From Polychytrium aggregatum (taxonomy: Eukaryota; Chytridiomycota; Chytridiomycetes; Polychytriales): a DNA stretch of 64,000 bases. Position numbers and translations under genes: made by a program. This document shows, piece after piece, positions 7,202 through 50,772 of this stretch; the first letter of the stretch is position 1, and each line of letters begins with the position of its first letter. The stretch spans positions 434,001 to 498,000 of the forward strand of contig NW_026516220.1 in the NCBI RefSeq assembly GCF_025602895.1, written 5' to 3'. A model generated the notes under the pieces. It did not search any database. It was not told the DNA's origin and was given only the letters and a program-made list of their open reading frames with translations.

Positions 7202-7332
7202 TGCAAGGGAGTCAACCACTTCCCATCAACCATCCCAAGAGGGATGGCAACCCCGAAGTGGACTGCCCAGAATATGGGCGACCCGGCATCCACTGTCGAA
7301 ATGCACAAGGAACAGTGCGAGATACTTACAGT

Positions 7333-8199
7333 CTATCCAGAAAAAAAACGGGACACTTCCCCTTTCTGGCTTCTGAAGCCCGCTGACTGACTTGTAGGCC
7401 CAGCGGGCAGGCCATGGCATTGCACTCCTGTCTTCGTTGGCAATCGAGTGGTTTTGGTTGGTTTGGGAAGCATGGTCTTGAATGCACTCGGTCGATCTCC
7501 TGTGGCGATGATCGACTGGCATACCGAGATCATATTCCTCGAGGCATTGATGTCTCGATCCCACAGCGTATGGCAGCTTGCACAGCTCCGGACAAAGTGT
7601 GGTTTCTCGATATCAAGATGCTCGGGTGACTCGAGTCGCTTGGCTTCCCGACAATGTGAGCACACCTGGGATGTGTTGAACCCGTTCACAGAGCACACAT
7701 GGATCTTGGAGATGGATCGGTCTGGTGGGCGTCTCTGGTGGTGGTGGAACTGCTCAAAGTATTTGGCGAACCTGAGTCTCCTGGGACTGGATGCGTATCC
7801 CTTCCCTTGCTTCCAGGAGGCATTCCCAAAGGCAATCACCACTTCGGTCTCCCTTGGTGCCTGGTCGATGACTCGCTTGCACATCTCGTGAACAGTGCGC
7901 TGTCGCTTGCTGTGGAGATCGAATCGCTTGAATCGCCGTCGCCGGGTCAGGCTGAAGTACAGCTGTTTGTCCAGCATGTCTCCATCGAACACATGGCGAA
8001 TGTATTGCAGGAAGGAAGCCACTCCAGGGATCTTGGGACTTGGTGTGGTGCTCATCCACTGCTGCAGATCAAGGATCATGTGGGTGTTCTGGATCCACTT
8101 GGTCGCCTGGGTGGTGTCTTTCGCTTGCGGGGAGCCATCTGCGCGAGAAAATAGCGACGATGGCTGGTTCTGCCCTTGGGGAAGAAAGAATCTCCTCAA
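7333..8199 (-). pseudogene. truncated Fanzor (TnpB-like) nuclease
   Basis: The open frame reads as the last ~200 residues of a Fanzor with a fused leader. From WMSTTPSPK onward it is collinear with residues 592-790 of the intact Fanzor at 46880-49252. It shares VVIAFGNASW, GKGYASSPRR, YFEQ, FNTSQVCSHC (zinc ribbon) and the third RuvC motif WDRDINASRNM. The first RuvC Asp and all upstream sequence are gone, so it cannot be an active nuclease. Where the intact copy has NEFNTSQ, this copy has NGFNTSQ, so a Glu that may be catalytic in this family is Gly here. The frame has no internal stop but runs into the terminal repeat, 40 or so codons past where the intact protein ends. Its first ATG is probably an accident of the deletion junction. 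Confidence 0.85.
7357..7408 (-). ncRNA. candidate omega-RNA hairpins of the truncated copy
   Basis: Just inside the terminal repeat lie two perfect inverted repeats: GGCTTCTGAAGCC (7368-7380), and an 8-bp stem GCCCGCTG (7378-7385) pairing with CAGCGGGC (7401-7408) across 15 bases. The stems share three bases, so they would be alternatives. Fanzor guide RNAs (omega-RNAs) are known to come from the 3' end of the nuclease gene and the adjoining transposon end, which is this place. That this segment is transcribed as a guide RNA is inference. Confidence 0.35.
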
Positions 8200-46358: not shown

Positions 46359-46779
46359 AGCCCAAAGTCACCGAAAGAGCCGCTGAAAGCCGTCAGCCAT
46401 TGACGCGCCGCACCTCGCCCAGCCCATCGCGTGTACTTTTTTTTTGGTAATTTCATGAAGCGATTTGCGGAGAAGGGTTGATACCCAACCCGTTATCGCC
46501 GCTCCCCACCCCATGGCGCATCTCCATCTCCTTGCATCCAGCACACGTTATACCGCTAGGGTGCGGATAGAAACCCCCTGAATATACGTTTGAGCCACCG
46601 GAAGAGTCGTTGCCGGCATTCGTGTCGGGTCGAACGTCGATACAGCCCTGCGGACAGCAGAGACACGCGGTACATCCTTGGCCCCAATCTCATGGAGCGA
46701 ACGGCCATTGTGAATGACAGATGTGTTTTATTTCCACCCCTTCTCCTAAAAGGCCGAGTGTCCCGTTTCGTGAGCGCTA
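46359..46779. other. gap between the Kelch-SH3 gene and the Fanzor element
   Basis: No gene is seen. Near the element (46758-46769) it carries GTGTCCCGTTT, the same core as the inner part of the element's terminal repeats, in opposite orientation to the adjoining end. Confidence 0.45.
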
Positions 46780-46806
46780 TACACTTTATTCAGAAAAAAA
46801 CGGGAC
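46780..46806. repeat. left terminal inverted repeat
   Basis: TACACTTTATTCAG, seven A, then CGGGACA. It pairs with the reverse complement of 50494-50522 with a handful of mismatches. The outermost TA (46780-46781) is the presumed target duplication. Confidence 0.8.
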
Positions 46807-46879
46807 AACATAGCCGTTTCCATGAACATGTAGTATGTGCTGTGCTTGCGTCAAGCAAAGCCACAAGAAATAAAACAGA
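46807..46879 (-). ncRNA. candidate omega-RNA scaffold of the intact Fanzor
   Basis: This is the only noncoding stretch between the nuclease stop codon and the element end. It has a perfect 6-bp hairpin with a 3-base loop, TGCTTG-CGT-CAAGCA (46843-46857), and the short palindrome CATGAACATG (46821-46830). In known Fanzor and TnpB systems the guide RNA scaffold lies here and the guide is read from the flank just outside the end. That this copy makes such an RNA is inference; no promoter or transcript can be seen. Confidence 0.45.
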
Positions 46880-49252
46880 TCACTTTGGCAGCCTCCGAGT
46901 GAAGACCGCCGATCGCTCTCCGATCTCCACAATCGACCTGCATACTGTGATCATGTTGCGCGCCGCATTGACGTCGCGATTCCACACTGTCCGGCAGCTG
47001 GGATTCTTGCAGCTCCTGACAAAGTGGGAATTCGCAACACTGGGCGCTTTCAGATCCCCCAGCCGAGAGGGCTCCAGGCACTTGGAGCACACCTGCGAGG
47101 TGTTGAACTCGTTCGTCGAGGCCACCTTGACGCTTCCATGATGGTGATTGGGACGGCGACGGTGGTGCTCGAATTGCTCAAAGTACCGAGCGAACCGCTG
47201 CCTCCGAGGGCTGGATGCATAGCCCTTGCCCTGTCGCCATGACGCATTGCCAAAGGCGATCACCACATCGGTCCGTATCGGGGCGTGCTTCAGGACGGCC
47301 TTGCACATCCTGTCGACGGCCACTTGGCGCCTCTTGTGGCCCGTGAATCGATGGTGACGGGCCTTCTTGCCAAGGTGAAAATCGAGCTGCACTCGCAGCT
47401 CCGGTCGCAGGACATGGGTGAGATGGACCTTGAAGGCCTCCGAGGACGACACCTTGGGCGAGGGGGTGGTCGACATCCAGGTCTCGATGTCGAGGCGATA
47501 CTTCATGATATTGTGCCACTTGGTGTTGGACGTATGGCCACACATTTGCTGGTAGTGGCCATTGGAGAATGAGACCACCTCGTCTTGGTGACCCGGTGCT
47601 TGGATGACCGCCGTGAAGATGGAGCCGACTCCAGGATCGATGCCAATCCAAGTGGTGCGGTTGGGGTCTGGGTCGCCGATGTGGGCCTGGATACGCTGCT
47701 CGGCAGTCGGAGGAGGCTCGATGGTCTCGGTGCGATCGGTTCGACGCACAAACTTGACGAGGCCGATGGTGCATCCAATGCCATCGGTGCTGATCTCGTA
47801 GTTGAACAGCTTCCTGTCCCTGACCCGCTCTTGGAAGAGGGAACTACGCAGCTTGAAGCAACTGCGCCAGAGACGATCCTGGTTGTTGACACCGTCCTCA
47901 CCTTCTTCCTTGAGCATGTCCCTGGTGAGTCCAAGGCGCTTCTTTGGACCCAGGAGATTCCAAAGAGTGACCGTGTCAATCTTGACATACTTGGCCCTTG
48001 CAGTGCATAGAGGAACTATCGTGCACACGGCCGGAGGAGTGTCGACGGCGAGCTGCTTGAGTGCCCACTTGATCCTGGCGGCCAGCTTGTTGATCTTGGA
48101 CTTGGTGGTGCCGAGCTCAGACTTGGCCGTGGTGAACCTCTTGTCGTCGGAGGGAATGCCTTGGGTAGTGAGCTTGTCCAGCTTGGCCTGGCGCTGCAGC
48201 TCGGTGACTCGGAGGGCGGGCATGTCACAGTCGATCCACTTGTGGACATCGTCGACCATCTTGTCCCGGGCGAGGATTCCCACATGGTGTGAGAGGCGAT
48301 GGAGGGCCCGGAAGTGGTCCTGGTCGTTGCTGTACCGAAACTCGTCCAGGACGTGGCCAAAGTCTGGATAGAGGAACTCGAGATCGGCCTTGGGTGGTGT
48401 CTGCCCTGGTTTCTCGAAGAGCTCGAGACAGGCCTCGATGGTTTCGTGCTTATGCTTGTTGGCTGGGAAGACGGCAGCACAAAAGCGACGAAGGAGTCGC
48501 CAGTAGGCCAGGTTGAGGTGGGTGGTGCAGTTGGTGGCATAGGCATTGACAGCCAGGGTGAGAAGCTGACTGTGAGCGCCATCAGGCAGACGAGGGGCCG
48601 GAGGCAGGTCTGCGTGCCGAGTGGTCTGGTAGTCGCGAAAGGAAGCGACCAGATGCTCGTTGTATTTCTTGGTATCCCTGGTCGGCGAGAGGGCACCGTC
48701 CTGGACGATCTTGAAGCATTGGCGGATGAATGCAGGGGTGGCCCTGGAGATGACGGGGACGGGAAGATCCTGCTCGATGCACCGGAGGATGTGCAGGTTG
48801 AGCAGCCTGGATGCCTCGAACTGGATCTGGGTCATGGCCTCGACGGTGGCCTGGATCTTGTCGCGGAGAGCGGGATTGAGACAACAGCCATCCATCGTCT
48901 GCTTGAAGCAGCTGAACTGAGGGGCGGATGACCTTCCATCCACGAGAGGGACGACAGAACTCTTGAGGGGCCGGTATTTGGGACATTTGCTGGTGTTGCA
49001 ACGTTCGTGATCGGTGCCATCGCACTTGGGACATCGCTTGCCAGTACTCGAGGAAGTAGATGGACCAGGCTCGGTGGGATCGACATCCATTGGATCTGCA
49101 GAAGCAGTGGTGGTGAGCGACGGAGCAACAGACGAACAAGCATGCGTGGGGTCAGAATACGAACCAGAGACAGGCTCCGACTGTGACTTGGCTTTCTTGG
49201 GCCTGGGTGGCCGAGGCTGGCCATCACCGGTACCCTTGCGCTTCGGAGGCAT
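46880..49252 (-). CDS. Fanzor, TnpB-like RNA-guided nuclease homologue
   Basis: A single-exon gene of 790 codons with no interruption. Fanzors are eukaryotic relatives of bacterial TnpB; studied members are omega-RNA-guided DNA endonucleases carried by transposons. Residues 1-25 are basic (PPKRKG, RPPRPKKAK), a probable nuclear localisation signal. A Cys/His cluster CPKCDGTDHERCNTSKC sits at 74-90. The middle (about 120-480) is helical without clear motifs. The RuvC-like part starts at WIGIDPGVGSIFTAVI, with first catalytic Asp at 539. It continues with VVIAFGNASW (664-672) and NEFNTSQVCSKC (714-725), where Glu715 may serve as the displaced catalytic Glu of Fanzors. The zinc ribbon is completed by C748 and C753, and the final Asp760 is in WNRDVNAARNM. 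All three acidic positions are present, so activity is plausible. It sits downstream of the transposase on the same strand. Genomic Fanzors are known from chytrid fungi. Confidence 0.9.
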   Translation of the reverse strand: MPPKRKGTGDGQPRPPRPKKAKSQSEPVSGSYSDPTHACSSVAPSLTTTASADPMDVDPTEPGPSTSSSTGKRCPKCDGTDHERCNTSKCPKYRPLKSSVVPLVDGRSSAPQFSCFKQTMDGCCLNPALRDKIQATVEAMTQIQFEASRLLNLHILRCIEQDLPVPVISRATPAFIRQCFKIVQDGALSPTRDTKKYNEHLVASFRDYQTTRHADLPPAPRLPDGAHSQLLTLAVNAYATNCTTHLNLAYWRLLRRFCAAVFPANKHKHETIEACLELFEKPGQTPPKADLEFLYPDFGHVLDEFRYSNDQDHFRALHRLSHHVGILARDKMVDDVHKWIDCDMPALRVTELQRQAKLDKLTTQGIPSDDKRFTTAKSELGTTKSKINKLAARIKWALKQLAVDTPPAVCTIVPLCTARAKYVKIDTVTLWNLLGPKKRLGLTRDMLKEEGEDGVNNQDRLWRSCFKLRSSLFQERVRDRKLFNYEISTDGIGCTIGLVKFVRRTDRTETIEPPPTAEQRIQAHIGDPDPNRTTWIGIDPGVGSIFTAVIQAPGHQDEVVSFSNGHYQQMCGHTSNTKWHNIMKYRLDIETWMSTTPSPKVSSSEAFKVHLTHVLRPELRVQLDFHLGKKARHHRFTGHKRRQVAVDRMCKAVLKHAPIRTDVVIAFGNASWRQGKGYASSPRRQRFARYFEQFEHHRRRPNHHHGSVKVASTNEFNTSQVCSKCLEPSRLGDLKAPSVANSHFVRSCKNPSCRTVWNRDVNAARNMITVCRSIVEIGERSAVFTRRLPK

Positions 49253-49503
49253 GGGAACAGAGGATGCTGGATGCCTGCCAGTGGTACTGGTCAGAGCAGA
49301 GACTTTTTTTATCGTACAATGGCGCGATGGTCAGATCAAGGCGAGATGAGGGAAGAAAGCAGCAGGACGAAGGTGTGGCATTTATACCCGAGAGCAGGAG
49401 CCCGTCTTTGCGGGCTGGTTGGGGAAGTGACCCTGTTCAAAAATCGCCGAGAGGTTGAAGCCAGGGATGTGAACGTGAGAACGGCGGCTTGATTGGAGGG
49501 AAC

Positions 49504-50436
49504 TCAACCCCAGAAGCGCATCGCTCGCTCAATCAGCCGTGGGAAGACATCTGGAAGCACCCTCCGCACGACGGACTCAAACAGGGTCACCATCCCGACC
49601 CTGAACCCCTCGGACGCATTCAGCGCTGCTGCCTTCCTGTACTGATGCTTCACAACCCCAAAGAAGTTCTCGATGGGATTGAAGTCGGGTGAAGCAGGTG
49701 GGGTGAAGATCACTGACCATCCTCGGCGCTCGATGCAGTCCAGGACAGCCCGTGTCTTGTGCATGCTGACATTGTCCATCACAATCACAGAGTCGTCTGG
49801 GAAGCTCGCTCGCTCAAAGAACTCGACCATCGAGTGTGTCTTGAATGATGTGGGGATGTACATGCGATGCAGCACACCAGAGTGGTTGATGGCAAATGCA
49901 GCCGAGACAGACTTGTGCTTCATGTGATTGCGCTGGCGAAGCGGAGCACCCTTCGGTGAGTATCCGTAAAGAGGGAAAATGGATTTCCTGATCCCTGTCT
50001 CGTCGACAAAAACGAATCGTCGTGGGTCGATGGAACGGACCTGGTCCCTGAACTGTGCCACTCGCTCATCCAGTCGCTTGGACTTGTAGAGGTGTGTTGC
50101 CCTCTTGTGTGAGAGACCTGCTCGGTGGATGGCAGTGTGGCAGAGTGAGAGTGATACTTTCCTCTGGAGGATGGACTCGAGCTTGCATCGCAACACAGGA
50201 CCAGTCTGGAACGGGTCCTGTTCAATCAGGGTGCGAATGACTGGACATGCCTGCTCGAAGAAAGTGGATCTGCGAGCTGGGACCCGGGATGGGTCATCCA
50301 GCTTGCATCCTCGGTGCCATCGATGGATGGTGCTCTTGGACACACTGAATATGGAGGCAACCTTACGCAGGCTATGGATGAGGGCGTAGCATCGCAATGC
50401 GGCGGTGCGAAAGTCGGATGTGTGGCGAATGGTCAT
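49504..50436 (-). CDS. IS630/Tc1/mariner-type DD34E transposase
   Basis: A single-exon gene of 310 codons. The N-terminal part holds a helix-turn-helix (SLRKVASIFSVSKSTIHRWH, about residues 22-41) for terminal-repeat binding. The catalytic triad is complete: Asp145 in FVDETGIRKS, Asp221 in VMDNVSMHK and Glu256 in SPDFNPIENFFGVVK, with 34 residues between the second Asp and the Glu (DD34E). This fits the IS630-Tc1-mariner superfamily and the TA flanks of the element. The first ATG is at 50434-50436; the frame is open further up but without ATG. It lies upstream of Fanzor on the same strand with 251 bases between, so the pair could share a promoter near the right end. No inactivating change is visible. 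Confidence 0.92.
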   Translation of the reverse strand: MTIRHTSDFRTAALRCYALIHSLRKVASIFSVSKSTIHRWHRGCKLDDPSRVPARRSTFFEQACPVIRTLIEQDPFQTGPVLRCKLESILQRKVSLSLCHTAIHRAGLSHKRATHLYKSKRLDERVAQFRDQVRSIDPRRFVFVDETGIRKSIFPLYGYSPKGAPLRQRNHMKHKSVSAAFAINHSGVLHRMYIPTSFKTHSMVEFFERASFPDDSVIVMDNVSMHKTRAVLDCIERRGWSVIFTPPASPDFNPIENFFGVVKHQYRKAAALNASEGFRVGMVTLFESVVRRVLPDVFPRLIERAMRFWG

Positions 50437-50493
50437 GGCCAGCACGCGATAACATTGGGTAACAAAATATTCGATCAATGGTCAAAACCTGGG

Positions 50494-50522
50494 TGTCCCG
50501 TTTTTTATTGGATCGCCTGTAA
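50494..50522. repeat. right terminal inverted repeat
   Basis: GTGTCCCGTTTTTTATTGG followed by ATCGCCTGTA, ending in the TA at 50521-50522. Its reverse complement matches the end of the truncated copy (7327-7356) nearly base for base: TACAG, then ATCCA, an A run, and CGGGACAC. Confidence 0.85.
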
Positions 50523-50772
50523 AGTGATGGTGCCGAGCCGCTGGGCTCGCAAAAAGGAGGAATGGACAGGCAGCGCGTCGTCTCCTGCCCATTGCAGGCA
50601 AGCTGGCGATGATGCTCAGACGGCCAGGTGATCGAGGGACAGGCAATGGCTGTCCTTCAGAGTCAATTCCAATGTCGATTCCAATGTCGGTGTCGATATC
50701 AATGTCGATATCAATGTCAATGTCGGCAAGATGGGACAGTAGCCGGTTCCGGCAGTGGGGTTGGGTGGTGCA
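50523..50772. repeat. degenerate AATGTCGATNNC repeat downstream of CK2 alpha
   Basis: From about 50665 to 50730 short units AATGTCGATTCC / AATGTCGATATC recur in tandem with changes. It is probably part of the CK2 3' UTR, next to the transposon's right end. Confidence 0.6.

Follow-up and report, generated by a model that had tools for sequence, protein, structure and literature searches.

The window analysed here, a stretch of 64,000 nucleotides from the chytrid Polychytrium aggregatum (contig NW_026516220.1, positions 434,001 to 498,000), contains a transposon at window positions 46780-50521 whose minus strand reads, in order, TA, left terminal repeat, transposase, Fanzor, right terminal repeat and TA. 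A sequence-only reading of the window had proposed a complete, uninterrupted element with TA at both ends, and both points were borne out: a 324-residue DD34E transposase, a 790-residue Fanzor and terminal repeats are all present, and the TAs lie at 46780-46781 (right end) and at 50520-50521 (left end, upstream of the transposase, preceded on the minus strand by a T at 50522). The two TAs would represent a target-site duplication. The terminal repeats, each 26 nt long and on the minus strand, occupy 50494-50519 (left) and 46782-46807 (right), as placed by an inverted-repeat search and by genome matches to the end patterns. They have an inner AAAAAACGGGACA block in common, and their outer halves differ. 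The longest inverted repeat within 46600-50750 joins 46777-46807 to 50494-50524 (31 nt, 74% complementary).

The same boundaries recur across the genome (64.68 Mb, 418 contigs). They were found in 39 of 40 fetched loci (labelled L), and in all 39 loci with both ends the terminal inverted repeats adjoin TA. The left end of L015 lies outside the fetched stretch, and the first few bases of L007 and L036 were placed by extrapolation. With up to three mismatches allowed, the end patterns gave 276 right and 414 left matches genome-wide, and reversed controls gave 0.

The transposase (49504-50478, minus strand) is an uninterrupted open reading frame (ORF) of the IS630/Tc1/mariner type, listed from a TTG and with an in-frame ATG at residue 15. 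Its catalytic triad is D159, D235 and E270, with 34 residues separating the last two as in the DD34E/D spacing. It scores 86.4 bits against DDE_3 (cut-off 28.6) and 126.5 bits against the NCBIfam IS630 transposase model (cut-off 100). The evidence supports a Tc1/mariner (IS630-like) DD34E transposon that holds a Fanzor, in a family kept in coding condition.

The Fanzor ORF (46880-49252, minus strand) is also uninterrupted, and the residues earlier assigned to it, D539, E715, D760 and the CxxC at C722, are found where they had been placed. The first RuvC aspartate stands in a DPG motif (D539-P-G), the glutamate E715 is followed after six residues by the zinc-finger cysteine C722, and the third aspartate lies in an RD motif (R759-D760). 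The combination of DPG and a shifted glutamate is the Fanzor fingerprint given in PMC10711439, and Fanzor1 structures show a catalytic triad of the same layout (PMC11423790).

The proposed identity as a Fanzor held up in profile searches and, with a weaker basis, in the predicted fold. PF07282 (TnpB-like zinc ribbon) matches the protein at 36.2 bits (cut-off 26.3), and the NCBIfam TnpB models score far under their cut-offs. A PDB search with the single Fanzor sequence returned nothing significant (best E 0.61). A profile built from 17 first-type proteins and 2 of the second type described below gave three PDB matches at E ≤10, led by SpuFz1 (8gkh, E 0.0029) and followed by GtFz1 (9cer, E 0.089). 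The AlphaFold model is weak (mean predicted local distance difference test, pLDDT, 52.9; predicted template-modelling score, pTM, 0.39). All four of its Foldseek matches with E ≤0.001 are nevertheless SpuFz1 (best 2.9e-7), at template-modelling (TM) scores of 0.19-0.25 for this low-confidence model. The SpuFz1 matches are taken as indicating homology, and the model itself is not reliable. The two best PDB matches, SpuFz1 and GtFz1, are both Fanzor1s, which suggests that the nuclease may be of Fanzor1 type.

Copies, coding constraint and a second Fanzor type

The genome contains at least 57 copies of this Fanzor. The best 57 of 1241 candidate places were scored and 57 of 57 carry a Fanzor, the others being 94-96% identical to that of the window. 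In this set 48 copies are uninterrupted, eight have stops and one is split into two matches; as the set holds the best-scoring places, the counts are lower bounds and are biased to intact copies. Pairwise, the copies differ by 2.6-5.8% of bases (mean 4.1%). The sequence-only reading, by which the pair may still be mobile, had proposed a search for near-identical copies and named strong divergence of all of them as a refutation. The high identity to the window's Fanzor and the intact frames of most copies speak in its favour; by the pairwise divergence, the copies are not near-identical.

For the transposase, the best 123 of 642 genome candidates were scored. In the aligned copies, 19 of 39, several shortened ones included, retain a single open frame that takes in everything between the N-terminal motif and that of the third catalytic residue; the call depends on these motifs and may be wrong where one of them has changed. 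The idea that every transposase deletion amounts to loss of function was dropped, as some of these open frames are shortened.

Selection was analysed in 39 aligned copies (L015, whose left end was not recovered, was dropped). The ratio of nonsynonymous to synonymous polymorphism (pN/pS) in Fanzor is 0.573 for singletons, as against 0.336 where a variant occurs in 2-3 copies and 0.345 where it occurs in 4 or more; the corresponding transposase values are 0.682, 0.596 and 0.374. A second count, which retains a few variants dropped by the first, has 0 stop-creating variants in Fanzor among those present in at least 4 copies (12.4 expected) and 7 among variants of every frequency (30.8 expected). 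Fanzor is under purifying selection. At threshold 2, its pN/pS is 0.37 in the 20 copies with a transposase frame scored as broken on motif grounds, compared with 0.353 in the remaining 19; these two groups are not independent, having a shared history through exchange between copies.

Size classes were taken from the exact end matches listed (100 of 100 right and 90 of 100 left ends transcribed). At least 58 end pairs occur among them, of which 44 span 3177-3790 bp and 14 are short: one of 283 bp, six of 311-312, three of 383-385 and four of 1113-1114. All eight of the short copies, or ghosts, that were examined keep both ends, the left one over 98-664 nt and the right one over 168-450 nt.

Two loci, L055 and L056, carry a second type of Fanzor. 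Their left end and transposase are those of the window element, at 96-97% nucleotide identity up to element position ~1013, and the identity ends just ahead of the transposase stop (position 1018). Their Fanzor is 43% identical to the window type, and the right end differs too. This second right end has 352 genome matches at up to three mismatches, many of them variants. One of the scored transposases stands directly upstream in at least 7 of 53 second-type Fanzors (the best 53 of 1433 candidates). The simplest reading of these sequences is that a module of Fanzor plus right end has been exchanged behind a constant transposase.

The second type also leaves traces elsewhere. A second-type right end (TACAGTCTATCCAG...ACGGGACA) lies in the window at 7327-7355, flanked by ~7235-7326, with T before its TA. 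Compared by eye, the outer flank at ~7235-7326 matches that on the right of L059, where a long second-type Fanzor element sits at seemingly the same site. In L059, which has no listed transposase adjoining, a 43-bp remnant of a transposase 3' end (558-600, 95% identical) lies upstream of the Fanzor, a hint that this lineage may once have carried a transposase too.

Same-site pairs provide a further view of the family. In five locus pairs the flanks are 99.3-100% identical and the elements inside differ by 2.6-4.4%, against an all-pairs mean of 4.1%; four of the five show a length difference of ~100 bp or more. Three ghosts stand opposite longer elements: L052 (312 bp) opposite L009 (3633 bp), L053 (1114) opposite L029 (3739), and L054 (1114) opposite L036 (3638). 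Across the 39 copies (L001-L040 without L015), which lie at different places, variants are nearly unlinked past ~30-50 bp, with the squared correlation (r2) falling from 0.64 at 1-2 bp to 0.026-0.047 beyond 50 bp (1/39 = 0.026). Hypermutation resembling repeat-induced point mutation was considered as a source of the shared changes and found no support: ~39% of these are transversions, and C>T and G>A changes have no single dominant neighbour.

Ectopic gene conversion would explain this mosaic pattern, and consensus mixing in the assembly might too. The latter would mean that single assembly copies are consensus mosaics of many copies, and that intactness and same-site differences are partly assembly error. 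Both the loss of linkage and the internal differences of pairs with near-identical flanks are what such mixing would give. Variant frequencies nevertheless fall smoothly (382 singletons, 128 doubletons, 77 tripletons), and majority mixing should suppress rare alleles. In two same-site pairs unbroken identity extends over 497 and 578 bp, where the median for the 736 other pairs is 212 (L004/L014 at 378 and L010/L017 at 350 are borderline; L021/L031 at 211 is unremarkable). The size-class differences, moreover, are hard to produce by base-level mixing, and ectopic gene conversion fits equally well. We regard consensus mixing as a serious possibility, falling somewhat short of probable. Given the mosaic pattern, the exact base sequence of an individual copy is less secure than it seems.

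A one-sided insertion-site mark and a predicted right-end RNA

Genome-wide, 204 of 214 exact left ends have T ahead of the TA (the rest being five A, three C and two G), as do 36 of 39 loci examined. Same-site pairs are part of these counts; leaving out one member of each of the five gives 31 of 34. By comparison, T precedes 12.9% of the TA sites that the window holds beyond the element. On the right, A follows the TA in 8 of 39 loci, which is near background (p 0.15). A mirror-symmetric preference would mark both sides, so the mark is one-sided. The base before the right TA, in turn, is G in 40 of 40 loci.

Known Fanzors offer a precedent for such a mark. Spu-1, the element of SpuFz1, has CA outside its left end, and the target-adjacent motif (TAM) of SpuFz1 is CATA (PMC10432273); CA joined to the TA would give CATA, linking the left-end mark to the TAM. 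The TAM of GtFz1 is TTAAN (PMC10432273). From the one-sided T-TA mark and the SpuFz1 and GtFz1 precedents, 5'-TTA is therefore predicted as the TAM of this Fanzor.

The mark might instead have been left by the transposase. TTA would then be the target preference of an asymmetric end complex and no Fanzor TAM, with the element otherwise as described. Since the left and right repeats have unlike outer halves, the element's ends may not be equivalent, and ghosts without a Fanzor ORF also show T before the left TA (7 of 8 examined). Symmetric strand transfer would, on the other hand, mark both sides, and the right side is near background; known Fanzor1 TAMs overlap left-end marks of this kind. Ghosts keep the right end and could use a Fanzor in trans, so that the T beside them does not decide between the two explanations. 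We consider this explanation possible and rather unlikely.

At the right end, an omega-RNA scaffold is predicted at 46780-46925 (minus strand), where it would comprise the end of the Fanzor ORF, the 3' untranslated region and the right terminal repeat. By analogy with SpuFz1 (PMC10432273), the guide is predicted to be the first 15 nt of the right flank (46765-46779, minus strand). The fold of the right end has a z score of -2.92 for the 146 nt and -1.87 for the last 101 nt, compared with -0.36 for the left end. In both minimum-energy folds, and in neither centroid fold, the terminal GUGUA pairs with an upstream UACAU. In the second-type right end (119 nt), its own, different outer repeat pairs with a strand lying upstream; the details of this prediction change when 30 nt of coding sequence are included. 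Diversity falls from 0.0408 across the Fanzor ORF to 0.0247 over the final 100 nt of the window type's right end. No Rfam family reached its gathering score within the window. An AATAAA three bases before the terminal TA had been considered as a polyadenylation signal that sets guide length; it was dropped, as the second-type right end has no AATAAA.

The right flank of the window element (46754-46779) is itself the end of a related element (TAGCGCTCACGAAACGGGACACTCGG, minus strand). Among 42 joined flanks, a GGGACAC core lies within 50 nt of the junction in five; the rest of the window holds eight in ~60 kb.

A proposed cycle and its relation to known systems

Starting from what was observed (anatomy, copy number, coding constraint, one-sided TTA mark, ghosts and two Fanzor types with one transposase), we propose, with modest confidence, a self-contained transposon: the transposase would move the element, a Fanzor guided by the right flank would cut empty sites, and the element would be copied back. 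The transposase, judging from its family, would cut and paste the element into TA sites. Fanzor would bind an RNA transcribed from the right end, its scaffold taking in the right terminal repeat and ~15 nt of the adjoining flank serving as guide, as the SpuFz1 precedent and the predicted fold suggest. The complex would cut 5'-TTA followed by the guide-matching flank, which is the unoccupied site. The occupied site would be spared because G precedes the right TA, so that this junction reads GTA. With an occupied copy as the template for repair, the insertion would be restored or spread, and more guides could come from ghosts in which the right end is retained.

The empty sites envisaged by the sequence-only reading were not found: no match runs across the junction for any of the 42 joined flanks (40 of 363 candidates scored). 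A second copy of the site on another contig was found for 17 of 34 Fanzor-element sites and is empty in none of the 17; occupancy at L019 and L030 was judged from a match ending at the junction alone. The role that had been put forward for Fanzor, at excision scars or homologous sites, agrees with the one-sided TTA mark and the missing empty counterparts.

Several observations weigh against the proposed cycle. The right-end fold is no more than moderately better than shuffled sequences, and with the 15 nt of flank added its z score drops to -0.95 and the GUGUA pairing is lost. The transposase is constrained too, as its value for common variants shows, so selection is not special to Fanzor. The 40 fetched loci are the best Fanzor matches and favour intact Fanzors, and the copies, not being near-identical, give no sign of a recent burst. 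The TTA mark could stem from a transposase with a polar preference for its targets. Missing empty sites are compatible with old, fixed insertions as well, and 40 of 363 candidates were scored in that search.

Fanzor may, alternatively, serve another role, such as cutting rival elements or regulating transposition, with the missing empty counterparts reflecting old fixed insertions. The mean divergence of 4.1% between copies is in line with this, the guide of the window element would target elements of the related kind whose end forms its right flank, and PMC10432273 leaves the biological role open. Against it, the T at the left flank and the G ahead of the right TA agree with a mechanism that tells empty sites from occupied ones. 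Most guides would also come from unrelated flanks, the shared repeat core lying within 50 nt in just 5 of 42 joined flanks. We consider such a role quite unlikely.

The proposed cycle of cutting and copying back can be extended. If Fanzor cutting keeps both homologous sites occupied, and repair can draw on any copy, the family would become one recombining population. This would give rise to the absence of empty counterparts, the size differences at the same site, the loss of linkage and the exchange of modules. We offer this extension as a speculation, and a distinctly improbable one.

The arrangement itself has precedents. A Fanzor1 and a Mariner transposase within one TA-flanked element are already known (PMC3627910), and PGv-1 and PUl-1 of that report are alike in being TA-flanked, with terminal inverted repeats, a Mariner-type transposase and a Fanzor1. 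PGv-1 and its three relatives are described as single-copy (PMC3627910), whereas here at least 57 copies of one Fanzor type, ghosts and a second Fanzor type are found. Spu-1 of Spizellomyces punctatus (PMC10432273) also combines a Fanzor with inverted repeats, many copies and a left-end mark, and its ghosts keep a right region matching the omega-RNA stretch, much as the ghosts here keep the right end. It differs in that no transposase was found inside its repeats, whereas the present transposase is open; in its mark (CA in Spu-1, T-TA here); and in protein length (638 residues in SpuFz1, 790 here). TnpB of the IS200/IS605 and IS607 elements (PMC11870625) is likewise an element-encoded nuclease, believed to draw its guide from the insertion site and to guard against loss. 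Those elements have a different transposase, no terminal inverted repeats (PMC3627910) and bacterial hosts. TnpB gene drive in plasmids is reported in PMC11870625.

Fanzor elements reach up to hundreds of copies (PMC10711439). That paper suggests a proliferative advantage from Fanzor, and PMC10432273 leaves the benefit to carrier elements open. Among the papers listed in literature searches, none was recognised as describing this element, and searches on Fanzor with mariner, a TA target site or a polyadenylation signal gave nothing closer among the matches listed. The element is a further example of the known Fanzor-in-mariner arrangement, unusually complete and useful: nuclease, open transposase, ghosts and hundreds of ends occur together in one genome. 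The insertion-site mark yields a testable TAM prediction (TTA), Fanzor modules appear to be swapped behind a constant transposase, and the question of retention or homing becomes directly testable with a native enzyme pair.

A search for relatives in viral contigs gave two pattern matches, none of which was confirmed. The genome also holds more TnpB/Fanzor2-like ORFs (L057, L058 and L060), which score 59.6 to 70.5 bits against PF07282; L057 has DPG, and L058 and L060 have DRG at that place.

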